Made by a program: the position numbers and the translations under genes
The notes under the pieces: model-generated
Told to the model about the DNA's origin: nothing
Databases searched by the model: none
The model's input: the letters and a program-made list of their open reading frames with translations, nothing else
Source of the DNA: Bdellovibrio bacteriovorus HD100
GTDB lineage: Bacteria > Bdellovibrionota > Bdellovibrionia > Bdellovibrionales > Bdellovibrionaceae
DNA length: 64,000 nucleotides
Assembly (NCBI RefSeq): GCF_000196175.1
Contig: NC_005363.1
Span: 3,038,001 to 3,102,000, forward strand
Direction: 5' to 3'
Part shown: one piece after another, positions 3,564 through 34,580 of the stretch
Numbering within the stretch: the first letter of the stretch is position 1
Layout of the letters: the number at the start of each line of letters is the position of its first letter

Positions 3564-3853
3564 ATTCTTCCTCCTTGAAGATATACCCATAGCCAATCCC
3601 CAGAACCATTCCGAGACAAGATCCTGTGTAGGGAATCAGGTGTTTGCGGCGTCTCAAAATGAGAAACGCCCGAATTGTCCCCTGATCAAACTCTGGACAC
3701 CTTTCGGGGCTGAAATGCAAATAGTTCAAACTGAGGTGGTTTCACCGTGGCACCTTCAATGCATTTATATCCTCTTAGGAGAGAGTCATTTCCCGAAGAC
3801 CCTTATATTCGATATGGGTCCCGAGAGGTGACATTTTAGGAATGGAGAGAGTT
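3564..3853. promoter_or_regulatory. Divergent promoter region with a small hairpin
   Basis: About 290 bases separate the divergent TTHB210-like gene and the giant metalloprotease gene. I see no supported gene here. A short stem (GACCC...ATAT / ATAT...GGGTC with a bulge) lies at 3798-3820, about 30 bases upstream of the protease start, and may sit in its 5' leader. No promoter boxes are convincing enough to place. Confidence 0.3.
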
Positions 3854-6800
3854 ATGTCTAACAAGTCTCAATACGCAAAGGCCTTCACAGCCCTGCTGGC
3901 TCTGGCAATCTTTGCTACTGGTTGTACAAAGAAAAGGGACGCCGCTTTGCCGGAAGAAGCCCAGGAAAACATCTTTGCGATCAGTGACATCCCTGAGCTG
4001 CAAACTGAGAACTCTCAGTATGAAGTTCAGACTGATGACAGTCTCTCCACTCTAAGCCTGGGGGATTCCTCCAAAGCGACGGCGGAAAAAGGTGTGGTTG
4101 CGGTTCGCGACTCCCAGGTTCCAAAACGTCTTAAATATATGTTTAAAGGTCTGGAGATGTCAGGTCAGGCTGGCCAGAAGTACTCCATCACTTTCTCTGT
4201 TGATAAGCAGTTCGTGACAGCTTACAAAATCGTGACTGACACTGCTGAATTGTCCAACCTGGAAAAACACCTGGCTCAGGTGAAAGAGGAAGTTCAGCTT
4301 CAAAAGCAACTTCAGAAATCCAAAGACAACAGCAAAGCGAAGTCCATGGTGGCTTCCTTGAAAAAGATCCGTTCAGAAAAGCAGGCTCTTCTCTCCCAGA
4401 AGTCTGCTACTCTGCTGGTTCCTTTGTTCAAATTCAAAATCAATGGTTACGGTGTTTTGCAAAGAGTTAAAAATCAGTTGAATGAAGAGACCTCCACTCT
4501 TCGCATGAAAACAACTGATTGGGCTGATGCTACTCACATTCAGGTGTCCATCAACCCGGCGGACCGTATGCCAGTGGGTATCGACGCGGCTTCTCGCGGC
4601 GACCTGGACCGCACGTTCGTAATGAACAAAATCAACAACAAGTTGATGACTGCGGGCACATTGAACTCGGACTATCAGATTCCGGTGAACATGGAAAAAG
4701 ACACCCGCATCCTGACTTTGCTGGATGTGGATGCTTTGCATGTGTTCGAAGTGGGTCAGGTTGGCAAAACTGTCCTGACTGATTCCCAGCTGGCTCAGTT
4801 GAAATCCGGCGCTAAGAACTCCAACGTTCGTCAATGTACTGAAGACATCGTCAAAGCTCTTCCTGCGGAAGCCCAACAGAACTGTATCCTGGTTCTGCGT
4901 TACGATGTTCCAGTAACATATGTACGTCCGGAACTGCCAGTTGTTGACTACGAAGGCAACCAGGACGCGACGATCTCTTTCAAAGAGGTTCGTGCTGGTG
5001 ACTCTGTAGGTCTGGTTCAGATCGCACAAAACGTACAAGCTAAAAAAGTAGAGGCGAACACTCAGTTCGACCCGCGCACTACAATCAAAATTGCTGATGT
5101 AAAAGGCAAAGAGTTCTTCTATAAGCGCACGATCGAAGACGTGGCATTCTCTGCTGCTTCCCCAGGTCTGGCGGCTGGTATGGCCGGTTCTTTGACAATC
5201 GTTAAGTTCGACCTTGAAGAATCCCGCGTAGTGGTTCGTAAAGCGGACCTGATCGCTAACTACAAATCCGGCACGAACGCAGTTGATTACGAAGAACTGA
5301 TGTCTTTGCCGGTGAAATACCTGAAACTGGAAGAGAAGGACGCTACCGGCGCGAAATACGCAATGGCCCGCCTGGTTGAAACTTCCCGTAAAGATGCTGA
5401 CTACATGGAATTGGACTGGACGAAGAATTCTCTTCCACAGGACAAATCCCCATATGCTGCTATCTACGAAGGTTGCTTGACTGGCATCGCTGATGCTCAA
5501 GTGATGGACGTGAACATGAAACTGGATCAGGGTGTGTTGAGCTTCACTCAGCAGTACTCCACAGGTCTACGCTGGTCTTGCATCGGCGACTTCATGGCCT
5601 TTGATGATTACAACGGCACACCTGGTTACCAGGCAGCGGTTCGCGTGAAAGAGCGTGTCTCCTTCAAATTGAACGACGGTTCCACAGACAAAGCTTTTGT
5701 TGAATCCATCCCGTTCTCTGCTCAAAATGCAATGGGTTACGGTGTTTGGACTGTCGGTCAGGCGAATCCTGACAAAAACAACCTGCGCGGTCGCGAAGGC
5801 ACTGAAAAATCTTTGCCAATGGTTCACGACTTCAGAAACGGCAAGAAACTGGTTTACACAGTAACGGGTCTTCCGACTGACAACCCGGAAATGCGCAAGC
5901 TTTACATCGAAGCGACTGAAGAGCTGGTGAAGGCATGGAACTTCGCTTACAAACAGGCCTTCAAAGGTTCTGCTTTGCAGCGTGATGGCGACTATATCGA
6001 AATGCAAATCGCTGGTGAAAACGGTGTAGAGGCTCACTTGGGTGACCTTGATAAGAACATCATCCACTTCGAGAACAAACCGGCTGACCACGGTATCCTG
6101 GGTGTATCTCAAGTTGGCTTCAACCCTCGCTCTGCGATCGTGGTTGCGGACTCTTTGATCCTTTATGCTGGTAACATGCTACAAAGCGTGGGTGCGGACT
6201 TCCGCAACATGAAGATCAAGGAAAACTGGGACAAAATGAAAGAAGACTTCCGCGAACAGGCTCGCGCTCAGCTGGCAAAACAGCAGGCTGAAGAAGCGGA
6301 AGCAGCGAAGAAAGCCCAGACTCAGCAAGGCACTGCTCAGGATAAAGCTGTAGCGGCGACTCAGTTCACCCGCAACATGGTGAACATGGTTAAAGGTGCT
6401 CAGACTGATGTTAAATCCAAAATGAAGGCTAAAAACATCGGCGCTTCCATGAACATCCTGAAAGCGGCGGTGGCTGAGCGTAAATCTTTGGGTGGCGACA
6501 GCAACTTCAAGTTCTCTTCTCCACAGACTCAGGACGCCTGGATGAACAAAGTTCACAAGGCGTTGTCTGAGAAACCTGGCATGACTCCTCGTGAAATCGA
6601 GACAGTGATGGCTCGTGAAATGCTGGCGTCGAAAGGTTCCAAGCTGTCTGCTAAAGAAAAAGCGACTTTGGCTAAAACTGTAAAAATGGGTGAAATCCAC
6701 GCCAAAATGATGGCAACGATGCAAGATGCACCAGGTTGTATGAAAACATCCGCTGAACTGGCTGATTCCAGCTTCATCGCGATGCCATTCAACCAGGCGC

Positions 6801-8752
6801 TGAAAATCGAGATCATCAATACCCTGGGTCACGAGATGGGTCACTCCCAGGGCTTGACTCACAACTTCATCGCTTCCTTCGACAAGGCGAACTTCGCCAA
6901 TGAAGACGGCACTGAAAGCAAACGTAACTACTCTTCCATCATGGACTACCTGACTCCAGGCAAGTTCAACTGGGATGGTCTGGGTACTTACGACATCCGC
7001 GCTCTGCGTGCTTCGCACCTGGGCTTGGTTGAAGCGACTCCGGAAATGATCGCGAAACTTGAAGGCAACGCTGCTTCCAAAAAGCTTTTGGTTAACGGCA
7101 AGTACCTTCACGTCAGCACGATCAAAGCCAACTTCGCTAAGAATGGCTGGGCTAACTTCAACAAGTACCAGGTTCAGGGCGTTCTGAAAGAGTACATGTA
7201 CTGCACAGACAAAGACGTTGGTTACGAGCCTACGTGTGAGCGTCACGACTTCGGTACTTCCGCTCAGGAGATCGTTGAATCCAATATCAACGACTGGGAA
7301 AGCATGTACGTGAATTCGTTCCACTCCTGGGACCGTCTAGTGTTTGATGTTGGAACTTCCATCCGCGCAAGCTCCATGTCCTCTTACTACCAGTTCCGTA
7401 TGCGTAAGTTCATGGACGAATTGTTCTACATGCTGGTTGTTGACAACAGAAACCCTGCGATCCAGGACTACGTACAGGCTTCTTTGAAGACGTACCTGTT
7501 CTACACGCAGCTGATCAACACTCCGGATGCGAACTCTTTGTTCCAGAGCGCGGACCGCTTCATCGCGGTTCCTTATGAGAAGAAAGAAGTGAACGAAAAA
7601 GGTGAAGAGACTGGCAAGACTTCCATGGATGTGGCGATCGTTGAAAAACGTGCGATCCAGGATATCTCCACCACGAAAGACCGTCTGGACACTGTGGGCC
7701 TTGAGTACGAAAAAATCACGGCCATGGAAATGCTGACTATGAAGGGCTACCCTTCATACAAGTACTACTACAACAGCATCCAGTTCTCGTTCCTGGATTT
7801 CGAAAAGTACATCCTGGGCATGAGCGCTGAAAACAGCCTGTTCGTGAACACGATCACTGGCATGATGCTGGATCAGTTGCAGCCGACGTTCTCTAACGAA
7901 GACGTGACTTTGCAGCCAATCCAGGGTGAAAAAGCGACGGTGACAGCCTCCATGAGATTCTATGCTGGTATCTACGGCATCCTGAATCTGGAAGCGTCCA
8001 CTTTGCGTGACAAAGACAACTTTGCAACTCTGTTCAAAGTGGGTAGCAGCCTGGGTAAAGCACCTTCTGACAGAACTGCTTTGAGCCAGCTGGGTGTATC
8101 TGAGAAATCCAAAACACGTCTGAGCTTCTGGGCTTTGGACAACGCTTTGGCTTCCCAGACTTTGGTTGACGTGGCAGCTCAGAAAAACTTCTTCATCCAG
8201 AATGCCGAAGTACTGAACCCACTGATGCAGAACATGGCGATCCTTCAGCTTCAAAACCTTCTGTCCCAAGGGCAGATGGAAGCGAAACTGACTGAGGCGA
8301 AGACGGCTCTGACTGCGAAACTGAACGAGCTGAACAAGGATGGCAAAATCGTTTCTGCGGAAATGGTTAAAGCCAACCCGAACCTGAGCATTGAAAAACA
8401 GGTTGAGCTGATGGCTCAACTGAATGAACAGGTGATCTCTATCTCTGTAGCGGTTCTGACCAAACAACAGGGCGCTCAAGAGGCAGCAGGTGAACTGGCG
8501 GCTCAGACAGCTCAATTGGCAGAAGTTCTTCCTTTGCTGGCTCTGGACTTCAACGCTTTGAACGAAGCAATGAAAACTGCGGGCGAAGCTCTGAGCAAGC
8601 AGCAAGGTCTGGAAGTTCTGGCGCAACTGGGTGACATTTCTTCCCAGTTGGTTGATGGCGGCGGTCTGGAAGTTTCCTACGGCATCATCATGAAGAACCT
8701 TGAGTTCTTGAACAAGCTGACTCTGATGACCAACCCAGAGTACAACAGATAA
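3854..8752 (+). CDS. Giant zinc-dependent metalloprotease lipoprotein (metzincin-like)
   Basis: This 1632-residue protein carries a lipoprotein signal (lipobox FATGC, Cys24), so it should be lipid-anchored in the envelope or exposed to the outside. A canonical extended zinc motif, HEMGHSQGLTH (H993, E994, H997, H1003), places the catalytic centre in a metzincin-like domain. A downstream SSIMDYL stretch supplies the Met-turn region typical of this clan. The overall plan resembles large DUF4953/DUF5117-type zinc metalloproteases. Before the catalytic part lies a Gln/Ala/Lys-rich helical segment (about residues 800-870), and the C-terminus is rich in Gln/Ala coiled-coil-like helices (about 1420-1600). 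ATG 3854 is preceded by GGAGAG; an in-frame ATG 12 bases upstream has no ribosome site. It is monocistronic with a strong terminator. Digestion of prey or envelope proteins is an inference. Confidence 0.8.
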   Translation: MSNKSQYAKAFTALLALAIFATGCTKKRDAALPEEAQENIFAISDIPELQTENSQYEVQTDDSLSTLSLGDSSKATAEKGVVAVRDSQVPKRLKYMFKGLEMSGQAGQKYSITFSVDKQFVTAYKIVTDTAELSNLEKHLAQVKEEVQLQKQLQKSKDNSKAKSMVASLKKIRSEKQALLSQKSATLLVPLFKFKINGYGVLQRVKNQLNEETSTLRMKTTDWADATHIQVSINPADRMPVGIDAASRGDLDRTFVMNKINNKLMTAGTLNSDYQIPVNMEKDTRILTLLDVDALHVFEVGQVGKTVLTDSQLAQLKSGAKNSNVRQCTEDIVKALPAEAQQNCILVLRYDVPVTYVRPELPVVDYEGNQDATISFKEVRAGDSVGLVQIAQNVQAKKVEANTQFDPRTTIKIADVKGKEFFYKRTIEDVAFSAASPGLAAGMAGSLTIVKFDLEESRVVVRKADLIANYKSGTNAVDYEELMSLPVKYLKLEEKDATGAKYAMARLVETSRKDADYMELDWTKNSLPQDKSPYAAIYEGCLTGIADAQVMDVNMKLDQGVLSFTQQYSTGLRWSCIGDFMAFDDYNGTPGYQAAVRVKERVSFKLNDGSTDKAFVESIPFSAQNAMGYGVWTVGQANPDKNNLRGREGTEKSLPMVHDFRNGKKLVYTVTGLPTDNPEMRKLYIEATEELVKAWNFAYKQAFKGSALQRDGDYIEMQIAGENGVEAHLGDLDKNIIHFENKPADHGILGVSQVGFNPRSAIVVADSLILYAGNMLQSVGADFRNMKIKENWDKMKEDFREQARAQLAKQQAEEAEAAKKAQTQQGTAQDKAVAATQFTRNMVNMVKGAQTDVKSKMKAKNIGASMNILKAAVAERKSLGGDSNFKFSSPQTQDAWMNKVHKALSEKPGMTPREIETVMAREMLASKGSKLSAKEKATLAKTVKMGEIHAKMMATMQDAPGCMKTSAELADSSFIAMPFNQALKIEIINTLGHEMGHSQGLTHNFIASFDKANFANEDGTESKRNYSSIMDYLTPGKFNWDGLGTYDIRALRASHLGLVEATPEMIAKLEGNAASKKLLVNGKYLHVSTIKANFAKNGWANFNKYQVQGVLKEYMYCTDKDVGYEPTCERHDFGTSAQEIVESNINDWESMYVNSFHSWDRLVFDVGTSIRASSMSSYYQFRMRKFMDELFYMLVVDNRNPAIQDYVQASLKTYLFYTQLINTPDANSLFQSADRFIAVPYEKKEVNEKGEETGKTSMDVAIVEKRAIQDISTTKDRLDTVGLEYEKITAMEMLTMKGYPSYKYYYNSIQFSFLDFEKYILGMSAENSLFVNTITGMMLDQLQPTFSNEDVTLQPIQGEKATVTASMRFYAGIYGILNLEASTLRDKDNFATLFKVGSSLGKAPSDRTALSQLGVSEKSKTRLSFWALDNALASQTLVDVAAQKNFFIQNAEVLNPLMQNMAILQLQNLLSQGQMEAKLTEAKTALTAKLNELNKDGKIVSAEMVKANPNLSIEKQVELMAQLNEQVISISVAVLTKQQGAQEAAGELAAQTAQLAEVLPLLALDFNALNEAMKTAGEALSKQQGLEVLAQLGDISSQLVDGGGLEVSYGIIMKNLEFLNKLTLMTNPEYNR

Positions 8753-15482: not shown

Positions 15483-16601
15483 CTACCGGCGTTGTTTCAG
15501 TTTTCTCTTCTTGCCGCTAGTATCCGTGAATTTGAAGTTAGCATCAAAGCTTAAATCAATGCTGAGGCCCACCATGATGCGATTGTCAGCACTCTGACCC
15601 GGATAGACACCCAGCTCTTCTGTGTAACTTGCAGCATCAAGACGGAAAATAAAGAAATCAAAGCCCGCACCATAAGAGAAATAACCCTGATTGATACCGG
15701 CGCGCAGATCCAGGAACGGAATTGAAATCTCGGTCCCCAAATGCAGCTTTTTACCAATCTGAATTTCCGGATCCAGAAGGTGCTGACCTTCCAGCGCGAC
15801 AATCCAGTCAAGGCCCGGAAGATCAAATCCCAAGGACACCCCGGCCCCCAGATTCTGAGGAATGTGCGATGGAGCATCATTGCCCGATGTCTTTTCGAAA
15901 GCTGTGTTACCCACATCTTTCCAAACCACCGTCAAAGTCGGATTCAGTGGAGTGTCGGCCTGGGTCATCAGTGCGATGTCCACGCCATAGCCAGTCCCTT
16001 TGTTGTTAAACTCATCCATGATGGCACTGAGATCGCCCGCATTCGCCACAGTCGTCAGCCCTAGCTCTTGCACATCCCCGCCCCAGCGGTTCACACGCTT
16101 CATCGCAAGCCCCAGATAAGTTTTCGGTCCCAGCGGATAAGCCCCGCCGATATAGTAGGCCGAGTCATTGCGGAAGTAGGTGGTGAACTCTGGATAACCC
16201 GGATTGTGCAGTTCTAACGAAAGAGTGTAATCCGTATAGTAACCAAAGCCGATGTACGGCAGGGCAATCGCGGCACTGCCTGTCCCCAGGAAATGGAAAC
16301 GTCTGCCGAACAAGCCGTTGTAAGTCGACGGATCATTCGCGTCGATGCCTTCGATGGCATCCAGATCCTCGGTGCTAGGCACCCGACCACCCAAACCAAC
16401 ACTCAAAAGATGAATGTCCAATCCTTCGATTTTACCCATTGCCGCAGGATTCGTGAACAGCGCCTCGGACCCCTGCACTGTGGTCAGTATCGTGCCCCCC
16501 ATCCCCATGGAACGGATAGGCCGGTACATCTGATTGATTTCTTGCGCCTGCAGAGGCAGACCCAGAAGCAAAAGAATGAAAGACGCCAGGAGCTTCATCA
16601 T
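15483..16601 (-). CDS. FadL/PorV-like outer-membrane protein, paralog 1
   Basis: The 372-residue protein has a signal peptide ending LPLQAQ and an N-terminal RSMGMGGT...EALFTNPAAMGK block. This Gly-Met-Gly...Asn-Pro-Ala pattern is typical of FadL/PorV/UPF0164-type barrels, in which the N-terminal segment plugs the pore. Alternating strands continue to a C-terminal Lys/Arg tail (SGKKRKLKQRR), which is unusual because barrels usually end in an aromatic residue. It is one of three paralogs in this island. The start overlaps the upstream lipoprotein stop (TGATG), and addB follows after 5 bases, so lipoprotein, barrel and addB may share a transcript. Hydrophobic-compound uptake is only suggested by the family. 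Confidence 0.7.
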   Translation of the reverse strand: MMKLLASFILLLLGLPLQAQEINQMYRPIRSMGMGGTILTTVQGSEALFTNPAAMGKIEGLDIHLLSVGLGGRVPSTEDLDAIEGIDANDPSTYNGLFGRRFHFLGTGSAAIALPYIGFGYYTDYTLSLELHNPGYPEFTTYFRNDSAYYIGGAYPLGPKTYLGLAMKRVNRWGGDVQELGLTTVANAGDLSAIMDEFNNKGTGYGVDIALMTQADTPLNPTLTVVWKDVGNTAFEKTSGNDAPSHIPQNLGAGVSLGFDLPGLDWIVALEGQHLLDPEIQIGKKLHLGTEISIPFLDLRAGINQGYFSYGAGFDFFIFRLDAASYTEELGVYPGQSADNRIMVGLSIDLSFDANFKFTDTSGKKRKLKQRR

Positions 16602-17572
16602 CAGAACCCCGGAATCTTCAGACGAGGGCAGCAGGCCGCCGCGTCGGGATAAACTTTGGTTGGATCACAAGTGCCGAATCCCATGCCGTTGGCATCCATC
16701 AGCACGCGGATTGTATAAAGTAATTCGGGTGTCACGGCCGCTTCATTGGTGGCCGTGCAGTTCCCCGCCCCGGCTACAGATTCACACTGGGTAAGCGCAT
16801 CCTGCAGGGCTGTTAATGTGGAATTGTCTCCGGAAAGAACCGAAGCCAGCGCCGAGATGTTTTCAAAAATCAGTCCTATTCCTGACGCGACTTTTTTGGC
16901 TTCTGTATCAGTGACTGAACGGGTGGGCGCCACCACCGGAGCCGGAATTGCCAGAGGGTTTTGTGGACTTGGACCTGGTTGATCCCAGCCATCGGTGGCT
17001 GTGGCTGTGCCAGGAGCTCCCGAATAGTTATGGCAAACACTGAAGTCCGTATTATAGACACCGTCAGCGACGCCATCATTGGTCGGATCCAGTTTCGCTC
17101 CCAGAGTTGTCCCGATACGGGCAATTCCCAGTATGGTCATGAAAAGATTCTGATCCTGCGTGCGTTCAAGCACTGTTCCCAGAGACGAGATGATTGTGAT
17201 GGCCTGATCACAGGACGCTGTATCCAGAGTGTTGCCACCAAAAATAGAAACAAAGAACGGGAAAATATTGGCCGATGGACTATTCTGCATCCCGCTGATG
17301 ATATCAACGAAAGTGAATCCACACTTGCCGGCATAGGCCCCTGCCAGAGTTTCTTTCACACTGACTTTGGCAGCATAAGAAGGCGAAATCTGATTTTCGA
17401 TAATATCAATAGCTTCGTCCCACTCCAGGGCATCGAGCTTTTTCTTGGCCTCATAATAAAGTGCATCGTCTGAATCCGTGTCAGAGACATCGGTCAGCAG
17501 ATTGGGCTGCGCACAGGAGGTGGTCAGTACCAGGCTCAGCAGAATTATGAAAGCTTGTTTAACACATTTCAT
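16601..17572 (-). CDS. Lipoprotein of the barrel island
   Basis: The 323-residue protein has a lipobox LTTSC (cleavage before Cys20). The mature part begins with an acidic stretch and a helical segment (YYEAKKKLDALEWDEAIDIIENQISPSYAAK) that reads like a tetratricopeptide helix pair. It contains a Pro/Ala-rich linker (PGPSPQNPLAIPAPVVAP) and many Cys (KCGF, ASCDQ, SVCHN, TQCES, GNCTA, GTCDP, AACC). It lacks a recognised family. It resembles the lipoprotein at 18870 in its Cys pattern and low-complexity Ala/Ser/Gly helices. It lies between two FadL/PorV-like genes with short gaps, so it probably works with these barrels, perhaps as a periplasm-facing partner. Confidence 0.6.
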   Translation of the reverse strand: MKCVKQAFIILLSLVLTTSCAQPNLLTDVSDTDSDDALYYEAKKKLDALEWDEAIDIIENQISPSYAAKVSVKETLAGAYAGKCGFTFVDIISGMQNSPSANIFPFFVSIFGGNTLDTASCDQAITIISSLGTVLERTQDQNLFMTILGIARIGTTLGAKLDPTNDGVADGVYNTDFSVCHNYSGAPGTATATDGWDQPGPSPQNPLAIPAPVVAPTRSVTDTEAKKVASGIGLIFENISALASVLSGDNSTLTALQDALTQCESVAGAGNCTATNEAAVTPELLYTIRVLMDANGMGFGTCDPTKVYPDAAACCPRLKIPGF

Positions 17573-17581
17573 GCTTCATCC

Positions 17582-18667
17582 TTAAAACCGGTATGCGAAC
17601 TTGACGGTGTATCGTCTGTCTTCTTTCGGTGAATCTGAGGTGCCGATCTCTTCGCCGTAGGTGGCAAACTGCCACTGAAAACGTTCGGAGGCGAGCTCCA
17701 TACCAGCGGTCCAATACCTTTGATTATATCCGGCACGGGCAAAAACCACATCCCCGAAGTTCAATTCGAGACCGCCGTGGATCAATTTGGCCTTATCCTC
17801 TTCATCCCCTGATGTTAATAAACCACGGTACTCCACCGTCCATGCCGAGCGAACATAGTTAGAATGAATCGGAAAGATTGCTGCCGCGACATCAATGTCC
17901 TGCTTCACCAAATTGGGACGGTTGGCTGTGTCCAATCGGACACCATGTGCCTGATCGAAACTGGTGCCACCCACATCACGAACCACCGCTGCCAGCGTTG
18001 GAATCATTTTCCAGGGAGCTGCCAAAATCAAACCGACATCTGTTGAAAGCCCCACACCTTCACTGGCGATGGAGTCATAACTCATAGGACCCGTCGCTGA
18101 TAAAACAGGATCATCCACTTCCACGCGGCTGATCAGTTTAGTGTTGAAGCCAAGCTTCACCCGGCCGTCAAAGAAGCGGAAATTGAAACCGAGTACGAAG
18201 GCCAAATCATTGCGATAGTATGCATCCACAGTGCTGCCATCGGCCGACATTGTCGCATCCAAAGTGTAATTGCCATAAATGCCGACACCGAAGTTTCTTC
18301 CCACAAAGGACGGCATAACCTGAAGTTTGGCGTGATAAGGAGTGCCGCGCTTTTTATCCAAAGCACCCAGCACGTCTTCAAGGCTGTAGGGATTTGAAAA
18401 AGACTGGTCCGCATAGAAACCTTGAGTCTCGGAGCCAAATTCAATCTCTGGATCGAAGATCGTCCCATAGAAATCACGCAGTTTACCCAACGCTGCGGGA
18501 TTCACCAGCAAAGCGGTCTCATCATTGGTGACAGCAAGGCAAGCCCCACCCATTCCCAGGCAGCGCACCCCACTGTAAAAACTATGACGCTCACGTGCGT
18601 TCACGTCCGGCGTGAACACCATCAAAAGAAACATTTGAATGAGCGCTATCCACAAAATCCGTTTCAT
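17582..18667 (-). CDS. FadL/PorV-like outer-membrane protein, paralog 2
   Basis: The 361-residue protein has a signal peptide and then CLGMGGACLAVTNDETALLVNPAALGK, in which the GMGG and NPAALGK elements match the other two paralogs. It continues with strands such as NFGVGIYGNYTLDATM and RNDLAFVLGFNFRFFDGRVKLGFN and ends in YTVKFAYRF with a terminal Phe, as expected for BAM substrates. A conserved VVRDVGGTSF element recurs as VVWKDVGNTAF in paralog 1 and VVRNVAETGF in paralog 3. ATG 18667 is used because ACGAGG lies upstream and the signal peptide starts there; the open frame runs 7 codons further. It leads a minus-strand set with the lipoprotein, paralog 1 and addAB. Confidence 0.72.
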   Translation of the reverse strand: MKRILWIALIQMFLLMVFTPDVNARERHSFYSGVRCLGMGGACLAVTNDETALLVNPAALGKLRDFYGTIFDPEIEFGSETQGFYADQSFSNPYSLEDVLGALDKKRGTPYHAKLQVMPSFVGRNFGVGIYGNYTLDATMSADGSTVDAYYRNDLAFVLGFNFRFFDGRVKLGFNTKLISRVEVDDPVLSATGPMSYDSIASEGVGLSTDVGLILAAPWKMIPTLAAVVRDVGGTSFDQAHGVRLDTANRPNLVKQDIDVAAAIFPIHSNYVRSAWTVEYRGLLTSGDEEDKAKLIHGGLELNFGDVVFARAGYNQRYWTAGMELASERFQWQFATYGEEIGTSDSPKEDRRYTVKFAYRF

Positions 18668-18869
18668 AGATACCTCGTTTAAAAACATCGAATCAAGTCA
18701 TCAGACTTATCGGACGTTTTCGGGCTCACATTGAGACGTTTCAGAAAAATACATTCAAACGTCCGGCTTACATAATTGTTACGAATTCAGGACCAATGTC
18801 GATTGTGAGTTAAGGACCCCGGATGAATTCCGATAAGTTCTCTGTACCTAAGACCAAGGAGTATCCAGG

Positions 18870-19592
18870 ATGTTTTCGAAGAAAGTCGCAACAATGATTC
18901 TAGGATTGAGCGCAGCTCTTCTCACGGGATGTGAGGCTGAACAAACTGAAAAAGATATGATTGCCGAAGCCCAGTTCTGTCTGGACGAAGCGCGAGATGC
19001 GGCTTCTGCCAATGCCTGCATGAGCAAAATCAACGGCATCACCTCTCCGAACGCCTATACATTAAGATGTGCTGCCGGGTTTATCTCTTCCGGTATCACT
19101 TCCGCCGCCAATCTTTCCTCGGCCCTGACTGCGATCAGTGACGGTGGTGGCCCAACAGACATGCTGACCGCCCTGAACTTTGGCGACGTCAGCCTGGTGA
19201 ACAACACGGCAGAATACTGCAATCAATCAGGTCAAAAAGGTCTGGCTTTGATCGGCGCGATGGCGAAAAGTGCCACGGCTCTTTCAAATGCAGCGGAACT
19301 TCTGAACCTGGGTTCTTGCGGTGGTGACCTGTCCGGCTGCGACACTGCGGCGATTGAAGGTGCTATCAACGACATTATTGCTGATCCGAACTCCCCGGCT
19401 GCTGTGGAAGCCATCGAAGCTATCGGTTCATCTATTCAGACAGTATATTCCGTAACTTGTGGCGGAACCAATAACGCCAACACAGACATCTGTGGTGATA
19501 TCAACCAAGCGGCCGCCACTGCCGGCATTGACATGTCCACCGCCGACATCAACGCCATCGGCCAAGCCCTGCTCGCCCAATGGCAACCATAA
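18870..19592 (+). CDS. Ala/Ser-rich Cys-containing lipoprotein
   Basis: The 240-residue protein carries a lipobox LLTGC (Cys21). The mature part is helical and rich in Ala, Ser, Gly and Asn (for example FISSGITSAANLSSALTAI), with regularly spaced cysteines (QFCLDE, NACMSK, LRCAAG, EYCNQS, GSCGG, SGCDT, VTCGG, DICGD), suggesting exported disulphides. No family is recognised. The composition resembles the lipoprotein at 16601-17572, so the two may be distant relatives. It is transcribed away from the neighbouring barrel genes and toward paralog 3, with its own terminator. The ribosome site AAGGAG is 9 bases from the ATG. Confidence 0.65.
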   Translation: MFSKKVATMILGLSAALLTGCEAEQTEKDMIAEAQFCLDEARDAASANACMSKINGITSPNAYTLRCAAGFISSGITSAANLSSALTAISDGGGPTDMLTALNFGDVSLVNNTAEYCNQSGQKGLALIGAMAKSATALSNAAELLNLGSCGGDLSGCDTAAIEGAINDIIADPNSPAAVEAIEAIGSSIQTVYSVTCGGTNNANTDICGDINQAAATAGIDMSTADINAIGQALLAQWQP

Positions 19593-19754
19593 AAGGTACC
19601 TGCTTACTTTTGCAGAAGCTCTGCAGCAAAATAGAAAACGGCCCACTTTAGGGCCGTTTTGCTTTTTCTAAATCTGTATTTCGGACAAATAACTCGATGC
19701 TTCTGCAGAACTGCGGTGGGCCCTCCTGTGGAGGGTGCCGCAGAGGTACCTTTT
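19591..19754. repeat. Inverted repeat frame around the 19.6-19.75 kb intergenic region
   Basis: AAAAGGTACC (19591-19600) and GGTACCTTTT (19745-19754) are perfect 10-bp inverted copies. Inside them, GCAGAAGC and GCTTCTGC form a second inverted pair, and CTGCGG...CCCTCC / GGAGGG...CCGCAG a third at about 19709-19741. The arms contain the stop codon region of paralog 3 and the 3' end of the lipoprotein gene. Its role is unknown. Confidence 0.4.
19635..19668 (+). terminator. Terminator of the Ala/Ser-rich lipoprotein gene
   Basis: AAAACGGCCC (19635-19644) pairs with GGGCCGTTTT (19651-19660) around a 6-base loop, followed by GCTTTTTC. Confidence 0.88.
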
Positions 19755-20934
19755 AGAAGTCGAGGTTAAGGCGGGTCATGTAGACGCGGCTTTCTACGGG
19801 GGTGTTGCGGGTGCCGACGTCATCTGCGTAACTTGCGAAGTCCAGGTTGAAGATTCCCAGCTCAGCCGAGATACCTGCTGTCCAGAAAGCCTCTTTCAAG
19901 CCCACACGATAATGACCTTTCCACCAAGTGGATACGGTCCAGTCGAACTCAAAGCCCAAGTGAACACCTTTTCTCCAGTTGAAATCCGGATGACCCAAAT
20001 CACGCACATCCAGCACGCCGCGACCACCAAAGATCCACATGCTTGGATATTCCCAGCGCGTTCCGATGTCCACCACTCGATAAAGCTTCTCAGGAGTACC
20101 ACTTTGCGCTTCTTTGTTCAGAAGCTTCAAAGAAGAACCAAAGCCTGTTTCTGCCACGTTTCGAACCACCAAACCCACTGTCGGGCTGGCCAGACGAAGC
20201 ACTGACCACAAACCTGAATCCGGCAGCTCTGGCGTCCACAAGAAGCCGATGTCGGCATCAATAGTGTAACCTTCCAGCATGTCTTCTTTTCTGATGATCT
20301 CATCGCCACCAGCAAAGTCCGTCGCGCTGATCGGACGGCTGTAGAAGCCACGATTCACAAACTTACCGGTCACACCCCAGGAAAGGCGGCCATGATTCAC
20401 ACCTTTCATGTCATCCGCATAGGACAGAGCCAAAGTGGTGTCGGCATAGACGGTCGTGTTGACTGTCGGCCCCACCTGCTGGTGCATGGCCATTTCCACA
20501 GACAGATCCGCAGGGATCAGGGCGATTCCCCAGTTGGGACGAACCCAGAAGCCTTCCATCGGCGCGATACGCATGGAATAGACCTCGCCATAGTTCTTTT
20601 CGATCAGCTCCAGATAAGCCTGCTGCTTTTGCTGCTCGGTCTGATTGCTGCTTTCGATATCCTGGAACTCGTTATAGAAGTCCATCGCCCCCGGCGTTCC
20701 ACCGGCCGTCAAAGACAGATTGATCTGCCCGTCCTCACGACGAGCCAGACCTGCGGGATTATAAAAGATGGCGGAGTAATCATTGGCGACCGCGACAAAA
20801 GCATCACCCATCCCAAGGGCGCGAGGAGCCTGATAGTGGTGGTGAATGGTGGTGCTGATGCTTTCAGCCTGCGCAGATACAGTGGTGATCATCGCAGACA
20901 GACCCGCGAGGAACAGGAATCCTCTATTGAACAT
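19753..20934 (-). CDS. FadL/PorV-like outer-membrane protein, paralog 3
   Basis: The 393-residue protein has a signal peptide (MFNRGFLFLAGLSAMITTVSA) followed by PRALGMGDAFVAVANDYSAIFYNPAGLARR, the classic N-terminal block of this barrel family. Strands such as RLSWGVTGKFVNRGFYSR and VHLGFEFDWTVSTWWKGHYRVGL follow. The C-terminus is VYMTRLNLDF, with a terminal Phe. A Gln-rich insertion (SSNQTEQQKQQAYLELIEK) near residue 110 would form a periplasmic or surface loop. ATG 20934 has GGAGG at a normal distance; an upstream in-frame start is discarded. It is the largest of the three paralogs and is divergent from the barrel gene at 20992. Confidence 0.72.
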   Translation of the reverse strand: MFNRGFLFLAGLSAMITTVSAQAESISTTIHHHYQAPRALGMGDAFVAVANDYSAIFYNPAGLARREDGQINLSLTAGGTPGAMDFYNEFQDIESSNQTEQQKQQAYLELIEKNYGEVYSMRIAPMEGFWVRPNWGIALIPADLSVEMAMHQQVGPTVNTTVYADTTLALSYADDMKGVNHGRLSWGVTGKFVNRGFYSRPISATDFAGGDEIIRKEDMLEGYTIDADIGFLWTPELPDSGLWSVLRLASPTVGLVVRNVAETGFGSSLKLLNKEAQSGTPEKLYRVVDIGTRWEYPSMWIFGGRGVLDVRDLGHPDFNWRKGVHLGFEFDWTVSTWWKGHYRVGLKEAFWTAGISAELGIFNLDFASYADDVGTRNTPVESRVYMTRLNLDF

Positions 20935-20954
20935 AAATTTTGCCTCCAAAATTC

Positions 20955-20984
20955 TTACCATTGATTGTAGACATAATTTATACT
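20955..20984 (+). promoter_or_regulatory. Candidate sigma70 promoter giving a leaderless transcript
   Basis: TTACCA (20955-20960) and TATACT (20979-20984) are separated by 18 bases. The predicted start of transcription falls within a base or two of the ATG at 20992, and no ribosome-binding sequence is present. This is an eye-read match, not an experiment. Confidence 0.35.
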
Positions 20985-32751: not shown

Positions 32752-32796
32752 AAAAAAAAAAGGGCTGCGAAATTTATCGCAGCCCTTTTGCTTTTT
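32752..32796. terminator. Bidirectional terminator after the biosynthetic run
   Basis: AGGGCTGCGA (32761-32770) pairs with TCGCAGCCCT (32777-32786), with nine A residues before and TTTTGCTTTTT after. It can end both the plus-strand dikinase and the minus-strand protease-like gene. Confidence 0.88.
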
Positions 32797-32816: not shown

Positions 32817-34028
32817 CTAAAGTTTCAAAGTTCCCAATTCAAACTGTTCAAGACCTTTGAAGATCATCTTCAGCTGATCAGAGAACACTGTGGACTTGCG
32901 GGAATCCAGATCCACCGTCGTGCAGGGAACTGCGCCAACAAGTTTCTTCAGAACTTTACATTTCACTGTCGTGGAGCAACTGGTGTTGTTGCAGGCCACA
33001 GGTGTGCCGTTGAAGAAGCTCAATGTCGGGTTGGTCATGAAAGCTTGAGTGTCAATAGCCTCAGAACAAGCTCTGCGGCGAACGCCGGACTTGTCAGAAG
33101 GACACATCCAGTCCTTCACCGCTTCAAGAAGATCAGCACGGGAAGACTGCAAAGTCAGTGGCTTCACAGTTGGAGTTAACAATGTGAAGTGAATCATCGC
33201 TTGAGGAATCAAAGCATCCACCGGAGAGAACACTTTATAGAAGCCCAAACCACGGCTGAATGTACCGAAAGAATCCACATAAGGAGAGTTCACGGGCTTC
33301 AAACGCAGACATTTTTTTGTCGTGCATTCCAGGGTCTGCTGAGTGATACGGGACGTGGTTCCGATACGAGTCAGGTTATCTGGATAATAGCCAACATCGT
33401 GATAGTACCAGTTGCCGTCAGTCATCATCTCTTGGAAGTCAGAGGATGCGAAAGAACCAAACACCGGGCGACGCCACATTTTTGCAGCCGCCGGGGCCAA
33501 CAGCCAACCCGAGTTGCAGGAATGGAACACCACAAAGGCATTCGGCGCCAAAACGCTGCCCAGTTGTGCGAACTCTTCGTCTTCATGATCCAAACGGTCC
33601 CGTTTGTCCTGAAGGCGGAAACCATTATAGGTATTGGCATGTCCATAGAACTGTAAAGAAGAAATCGGCGCATTCAAATACTGCAGAGCCAATACCAGGC
33701 GTTCTTTACCCAGATCGTCGTTGTCAGCCTTACGGAAGCCAAAGCCTGCATTAGCCAGCATCGCGCTTTCCGCGGACAGGGATTCATTCACCGCGCTGAT
33801 AATCACGCGCTGTCTTTGTGGAAAACGGTCACGGGAGACTTTAGCGCCAATGATCGCAGACTGAAGGAACTGTGTCCCCTGGTCATTACCAAAACCCGCT
33901 ACAAATACGTCAGTAGGAACGCCTGCACGAAGCTTTGCCGGTTCAGAAGCAATCAGATAGGCCGCACTTTTTTGCGCCCAGGAACCCGCCACAAAAGCCA
34001 GAGCTCCCACGAGAAGCTTGAATTTCAT
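32817..34028 (-). CDS. Secreted clan-CD (caspase-like) cysteine peptidase candidate
   Basis: The 403-residue protein has a signal peptide (MKFKLLVGALAFVAGSWAQKSAA). A catalytic-dyad pattern for clan CD (caspase, gingipain, legumain) is visible: hydrophobic strand then His in LQFYGHANTYNGF (H130), and a second hydrophobic strand then Cys in AFVVFHSCNSGWL (C171), 41 residues apart. The segment VIISAVNESLSAESAMLANAGFGFRKADNDD upstream (in parts) fits the first strand and helix of the fold. The C-terminal half is Cys-rich with CNNTSCSTTVKC. No exact family is recognised, so a non-peptidase role is possible. ATG 34028 follows GAGG. It is monocistronic. Confidence 0.55.
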   Translation of the reverse strand: MKFKLLVGALAFVAGSWAQKSAAYLIASEPAKLRAGVPTDVFVAGFGNDQGTQFLQSAIIGAKVSRDRFPQRQRVIISAVNESLSAESAMLANAGFGFRKADNDDLGKERLVLALQYLNAPISSLQFYGHANTYNGFRLQDKRDRLDHEDEEFAQLGSVLAPNAFVVFHSCNSGWLLAPAAAKMWRRPVFGSFASSDFQEMMTDGNWYYHDVGYYPDNLTRIGTTSRITQQTLECTTKKCLRLKPVNSPYVDSFGTFSRGLGFYKVFSPVDALIPQAMIHFTLLTPTVKPLTLQSSRADLLEAVKDWMCPSDKSGVRRRACSEAIDTQAFMTNPTLSFFNGTPVACNNTSCSTTVKCKVLKKLVGAVPCTTVDLDSRKSTVFSDQLKMIFKGLEQFELGTLKL

Positions 34029-34247
34029 TTTGACCTCACAAGTTAAAAACAGAGGCCACGTTCTACCACAAACACGAGGCGATCTAAACATTCTGTGATA
34101 ATTCACAAAGCCGCCTGAAAAGAGTTCAGTAAAACGTCACATTGTCAAAAACTTAGACAGCAAAGCCCGTCGTAAAGCCTGCGTTTTCCCTCTGAAATGG
34201 GCATAACTCTCGCACCTGTCCCCGTGTGACTTAAAAATGGAGATTAT

Positions 34248-34580
34248 ATGAAAATTCTGAAATCGTTCGTCCTTGTAGCTTTGAGTCTTTCCGCCGTGAA
34301 CGCTTCCGCTTATGGCCTGGAGTGCACGACTCAATCCCATATCATGGATTATTTGACTTTAGACCGCGATGGCGGTGAAGAAACCATCACCGTGAACTAT
34401 CTGAGCGAACAAAAAGAACGCTTCCTGGTGATCAAGCACACGAAAGAACACATTGTCGCCGTCAAAGGCCAAGTCAGCGAGTCGAACCCAAGAAAAGTCG
34501 AACTGATGTTGGATGAATCCGGCAACGGCCAGATGGCCCTTTACGGACAAACAGCCGACGTCAGCTGCACCGAAAAGTAA
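34248..34580 (+). CDS. Small secreted protein of unknown function
   Basis: The 110-residue protein has a clean signal peptide (MKILKSFVLVALSLSAVNASA) and a compact mature part of about 89 residues with two cysteines (GLECTTQ and DVSCTEK) that could form one disulphide. Strands such as EETITVNYLSEQKERFLVIKH and KVELMLDESGNGQMALYG suggest a small all-beta fold. No family is recognised. GGAG precedes the ATG by 5 bases. It is divergent from the caspase-like gene and is followed by a long palindrome instead of a simple terminator. Confidence 0.6.
   Translation: MKILKSFVLVALSLSAVNASAYGLECTTQSHIMDYLTLDRDGGEETITVNYLSEQKERFLVIKHTKEHIVAVKGQVSESNPRKVELMLDESGNGQMALYGQTADVSCTEK

Follow-up and report, generated by a model that had tools for sequence, protein, structure and literature searches.

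A predicted exported clan-CD cysteine peptidase of Bdellovibrio bacteriovorus HD100 and its unnamed family at the edge of DUF4347

Described systems and the gene

In the peptidases of clan CD, the catalytic His and Cys are each described as sitting at the C-terminal end of a core strand, and a loop that follows the core as contributing a conserved aromatic residue to the S1 pocket (PMC4357240). A described bacterial protein of this kind is Tce1 (PA0256), which carries DUF4347 (PMC8262886) and is presented as a putative cysteine protease, with predicted His186 and Cys240 aligned to a known dyad (PMC13323088). Escherichia coli expressing PA0256 is reported to show a 2-log drop in survival (PMC8262886), and Tce1 is reported to have seemingly no effect on E. 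coli growth (PMC13323088). The Bdellovibrio proteases named in the relevant passages of two papers (PMC12546842, PMC11003981) are mostly serine enzymes, and the three cysteine enzymes given there (Bd0084, Bd1380 and Bd3070) do not include any at the locus studied here. Among the papers listed in a literature search that combined Bdellovibrio with caspases, metacaspases, orthocaspases, clostripain or C11, none dealt with the family described below; DUF4347 is mentioned in 4 papers.

The gene concerned lies in the window, namely the whole stretch of 64,000 nucleotides of the HD100 genome that was analysed, and its features are collected in Table 1. The ORF finder extends the same frame to an alternative GTG start at 34106, giving 429 aa; the ATG was taken as the start because the protein then begins with MKFKLLVGALAFVAGSWAQKSAA-Y, which resembles a signal peptide, and because the near relatives L002 and L003 have no other start. 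Inspected by eye, the signal peptide of the 403-aa protein lacks a lipobox cysteine, and A23 is nearly invariant in one of the alignments (A1). The original prediction had called the protein secreted. A signal-peptide-like N-terminus is indeed present by eye, and from it we infer the export itself and an action outside the cytoplasm.

Table 1. Features of the caspase-fold gene and its surroundings (positions in the window)
Feature	Position	Strand	Basis or remark
Coding sequence, exported clan-CD-fold protein (predicted)	32817..34028	-	ATG at 34028, stop codon 32817-32819, 403 aa
Putative signal peptide, residues 1-23, Sec-type, MKFKLLVGALAFVAGSWAQKSAA-Y	33960..34028	-	By eye; cleavage ...KSAA/Y24
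Predicted clan-CD (caspase-haemoglobinase) core, about residues 36-205	33414..33923	-	DSSP strand/helix order, fold matches; residues 110-175 match a DUF4347-like profile
Codon of H130, predicted catalytic His	33639..33641	-	Directly after strand 122-129; conservation
Codon of C171, predicted catalytic Cys	33516..33518	-	Directly after strand 160-170; conservation
C-terminal region, four co-varying cysteine pairs and invariant Y250	32922..33326	-	93-row alignment
Terminator-like hairpin, bidirectional, between the 403-aa gene and the convergent PEP-synthase-like gene	32758..32789	.	

The locus tag was estimated by counting. In the HD100 genome, FtsZ is found at contig position 3110232 and a YkuD protein at 3094486, for which the published tags are Bd3189 and Bd3176, respectively (PMC12546842). 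Counting ORFs of at least 100 aa from a Met-zincin taken as Bd3137 leads to Bd3154, and counting back from YkuD (Bd3176) leads to Bd3157; the tag of the gene is about Bd3154 (range Bd3154-Bd3157). The Met-zincin, probably Bd3137, is a 1636-aa lipoprotein-like protein at 3842-8752 (+) of the window with the motif HEMGHSQGLTH (DUF4953). Among the tags Bd3152-Bd3157, a mention in the literature was found for Bd3155 only, in one paper, as a predicted C-type lysozyme inhibitor that is 6.2-fold up on prey attachment. Bd3155 could be the neighbouring ORF at 34248-34580 (+), which is divergent from the caspase-fold gene and encodes a small exported protein of 110 aa; the lack of any MliC match in the whole HD100 genome counts against this assignment.

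On the upstream side, the gene has this small exported protein and a DUF3419 protein as neighbours; downstream, beyond the hairpin, lies a convergent gene whose product has PPDK_N and PEP-utiliser domains. The latter neighbour (at least 87% identity) adjoins the gene in six of the ten nearest orthologs (L001-L004, L009 and L010), a 46% homolog occupies that place in L005, and no PPDK/PEP homolog was recognized in L006-L008 within the 1.5 kb examined. No functional partner pointing to a substrate was found among the genomic neighbours. Elsewhere in the window, at 15483-20961 (-), three exported proteins (15483, 17582 and 19753) have in common a motif of the LGMG type shortly behind their signal peptides and are possibly paralogous.

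Predicted fold and sequence affinity

The clan-CD reading began with a His/Cys pair, and the pair was recovered exactly as first described: H130 lies in YGHA (within LQFYGHANTYNG) and C171 in FHSCNSG (within VVFHSCNSGW), with a spacing of 41 residues. An AlphaFold2 model (m98f74337e229), computed from the window protein aligned with eight relatives, has a mean pLDDT of 82.5 and a pTM of 0.85. Its elements follow in the order strand 39-44, helix 53-68, strand 73-79, helix 84-93, strand 98-102, helix 108-117, strand 122-129 and then H130, strand 136-138, helix 151-159, strand 160-170 and then C171, helix 174-185 and strand 189-192. The predicted fold has a core in which alpha and beta elements alternate around a central sheet, the caspase-haemoglobinase sheet, and both H130 and C171 stand directly after a strand, which is the position of the dyad in clan CD.

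In a Foldseek search of the PDB, the only two matches with E <= 0.001 were to iotapain chains, iotapain being a secreted C11 peptidase, and were obtained at modest scores (E 5.5e-4 at best, TM about 0.26-0.28); further down came CHAT and legumain, with Rossmann-type enzymes lower still. With VIA-align 2, the top 46 rows were all clan-CD chains, from legumain (Z 11.1) down to MALT1 (Z 7.8), and the first unrelated fold was prephenate dehydrogenase (Z 7.7). The legumains aligned over 242 residues at 5.4 A, iotapain (Z 9.5) over 201 residues at 4.1 A, SAVED-CHAT (Z 9.4) over 155 residues at 3.3 A, and Tce1 (Z 9.4) over 154 of 178 residues at 3.1 A; metacaspase 4 (Z 9.3), clostripain (Z 8.0) and a GPI-transamidase chain were also among the matches. 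A library of viral structures gave no match with E <= 0.001, and its better rows were a C11-like protease, clostripain and a caspase, in agreement with clan CD, but also VWA and hydrolase folds. We regard the clan-CD fold of the model as well supported rather than proven.

At the level of sequence, the HD100 protein had no Pfam match up to E 10 (PF14252, C25, C50 and C80 included) and no match among PDB sequences, and neither of two family profiles (A1 and A5) matched the PDB. Two matches were discarded as noise, namely NCBIfam blaPAD (11.2 bits, with the cut-off at 575) and a Gal/GalNAc lectin (E 0.054). PF14252 (DUF4347) weakly matched 15 of 57 diverse members hand-picked from the 93 of the alignment described below (best E 4.6e-4); other families matched at most two of the 57. 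A DUF4347 search of the phylum gave matches in 16 of 240 genomes, and two of these 16 matches proved to be members of the present family; the two, G065:C14 and G088:C8, score 22.8 and 22.5 bits, below the PF14252 gathering cut-off of 24.6.

A DUF4347-like profile was built from 11 of the 16 loci, two having been dropped as belonging to the family itself and three, near contig ends, left out. In a local hhalign comparison, the 93 family rows matched this profile with Prob 93.5 and E 2.2e-7, against E 0.34 for the reversed control, and the 57-row alignment matched it with Prob 95.4 and E 2e-8 over residues 110-175. H130 was aligned on the histidine of the HG motif and C171 on the cysteine, both of which are invariant in the DUF4347-like alignment, and at E 0.0073 the DUF4347-like profile itself reaches Tce1 (PDB 9qpe_G), which was deposited under the name 'DUF4347 domain-containing protein'. 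The comparisons with C11-like and C13-like sequences of the phylum were not significant (hhalign E 0.45 and 0.22, respectively), though in the latter H was paired with H and C with C. By sequence, then, the proteins are an unnamed family at the edge of DUF4347, below the Pfam cut-off. The HD100 genome contains no match to Pfam C11 (PF03415), C13 (PF01650), C14 (PF00656), CHAT (PF12770) or DUF4347, and CHAT has no match in any of the 191 genomes searched, HD100 included; as far as these five groups are concerned, the present protein may be the sole recognizable clan-CD protein of HD100.

The assumption in the original prediction that exported clan-CD peptidases are few did not hold, for the phylum contains other clan-CD or DUF4347-like proteins, several of them with signal-peptide-like starts. 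The other DUF4347-like proteins of Bdellovibrionota (L143-L147, L149, L150 and L153-L156) have an invariant HG and C, and many start in this way. Two distant relatives, L070:1403-2794 (-) and L073:1066-2406 (-), are fusions in which the same H...CxSG core is followed by a SAM methyltransferase domain at the C-terminus.

Conservation and paired cysteines

When 59 related genomes were searched with the single sequence, 24 of them yielded relatives, and a search with a 21-row profile found the family in 73 of 368 Bdellovibrionota genomes, with up to five copies per genome in one taxonomic family. A pattern scan of 84,980 species genomes yielded eight loci, all in Bdellovibrio, Bdellovibrionaceae or Bdellovibrionales, a lower bound since the pattern was strict. 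The family is probably specific to Bdellovibrionota, and it has no name. Within the genus, the gene is present in 21 of 24 genomes, and its absence from the remaining three shows that the genus can do without it. Neither the single-sequence nor the profile search found a member in G025, which we take to be B. exovorus JSS, an epibiotic predator.

With 60 further loci hand-chosen from the 73-genome search, the family set came to 99 unique ORFs. Wherever a row has a letter, His stands at H130 (96 of 96 rows, three gaps) and Cys at C171 (98 of 98, one gap). In the 93 rows that span most of the length, six having been dropped, H130, C171 and Y250 are each present in 93 of 93; R242, N172 and K265 are nearly invariant, and C309 and C321 are found in all of the 92 rows that are not gapped there. 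H130 is the sole conserved His, the next His column reaching 54%. Profile-based selection of members favours conserved columns, but the columns adjoining H130 and C171 vary freely. Because both residues are invariant at a median pairwise identity of about 28% (a sample of 800 pairs), the H/C pair exceeds what chance would give. Together with the predicted fold, the placing of both residues after strands and the DUF4347 profile alignment, this invariance supports the dyad as originally read.

The HD100 protein has nine cysteines: C171 and eight in the C-terminal half. In the 93 rows, the pair 235/240 is complete in 90 and wholly absent from three, 309/321 complete in 92 and absent from one, 346/351 complete in 91 and absent from two, and 357/369 complete in 73 and absent from 19, with a single Cys in one row. 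Since the eight are kept or lost as pairs in a protein with an export signal, the pattern suggests four disulfides, with C171 left free; a cysteine peptidase that is exported would require C171 to be unpaired. In many relatives the cysteines number 11 or 12, and the count of one left over holds for HD100-type proteins rather than for every member. Predicted alone, the C-terminal half has a pLDDT of 70.5, compared with 82.5 for the whole protein, and gives no fold match in the PDB; based on this drop in confidence, the half is read as packing on the core and not as a separate domain. From their conservation, Y250, R242, N172 and K265 are candidate substrate-binding residues, and Y250 might stand at the place of the aromatic S1 residue of the clan.

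Proposed role and comparison with known systems

Taking these results together, we consider that the gene probably encodes an exported clan-CD cysteine peptidase of an unnamed Bdellovibrionota family at the DUF4347 edge, which may be used in predation. The protein would be exported by Sec and its signal peptide removed; the C-terminal half, packed on the core, would be held by up to four disulfides, with C171 unpaired; and H130 would activate C171 for attack on a peptide bond via a thiol acyl-enzyme. Among the possible substrates, we favour envelope or periplasmic proteins of the prey, which would be cut during predation. The copy number of up to five per genome and the absence from the presumed B. 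exovorus lean towards an action on prey, though this absence is at most a hint, and the presence in 73 of 368 genomes fits a role in a predatory lineage without proving it. More tentatively, the phylum may possess a set of exported, disulfide-braced caspase-fold proteases that are released into the prey periplasm and cut prey envelope proteins; with their own signal peptide, they would be a secreted counterpart of the DUF4347 effectors that are loaded into T6SS tubes in other bacteria.

Many clan-CD enzymes, including legumain, GPI-transamidase and self-cleaving toxins, process proteins of their own or the host cell. An active peptidase or transpeptidase that serves in the maturation, anchoring or turnover of the bacterium's own envelope or secreted proteins, with no direct prey role, is accordingly a possible alternative, and a less probable one. 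A GPI-transamidase chain does occur among the fold matches, the gene has a terminator, stands by itself and lacks an effector-type partner, and three of the 24 genomes of the genus do without it; however, as many as five copies in some genomes of one family resemble a battery of secreted enzymes more than one housekeeping protease.

Divergent clan-CD-like folds without known peptidase activity also occur, as in the N-terminal domain of Raptor. It seems unlikely that the HD100 protein is of that kind, that is, a binding protein or pseudo-peptidase in which the fold has persisted and His and Cys are retained for other chemistry or for structure: the invariant Y250 and the nearly invariant R242 and N172 could mark a binding site, but nothing in the core is more conserved than the dyad, C171 stands outside the cysteine pairs and no other His is conserved. 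That the H/C pair is a chance resemblance in a protein of another fold is very improbable, for although the HD100 protein matches no named family by sequence, the fold searches, the profile comparison with its reversed control and the invariance of H130 and C171 all agree.

With an exported peptidase as the preferred reading, a hypothetical protein of the model predatory bacterium becomes a testable predicted cysteine peptidase with two named residues. A secreted caspase-fold enzyme would add another active-site class to the predator's kit. A phylum-wide unnamed family is also linked to DUF4347, of which the solved member, Tce1, is carried by a T6SS.

Compared with known systems, the family is an unnamed one with its own architecture inside a known clan. 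It shares with DUF4347/Tce1 of the P. aeruginosa H3-T6SS (PDB 9qpe) the H...C dyad core, a profile match and a fold match at Z 9.4; however, PF14252 does not match the HD100 protein, and the two members found with that model lie below its cut-off. Tce1 is loaded by the T6SS, whereas the HD100 protein has its own predicted signal peptide, and its C-terminal half carries four cysteine pairs. Legumain/asparaginyl endopeptidase (C13) is the best structural match, at Z 11.1, but with only about 10% identity and a C13-like profile E of 0.22. The secreted C11 enzymes (iotapain and clostripain) are likewise exported bacterial clan-CD enzymes and provide the sole Foldseek matches with E <= 0.001, although Pfam C11 has no match in the HD100 genome and the C11 profile comparison is not significant. 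The caspase-like-methyltransferase fusions L070 and L073 match in the core profile (Prob 96.9, E 1.5e-10), where H and CxSG line up; unlike the HD100 protein, they show no signal peptide by eye, and a methyltransferase domain takes the place of the cysteine-paired C-terminal half.
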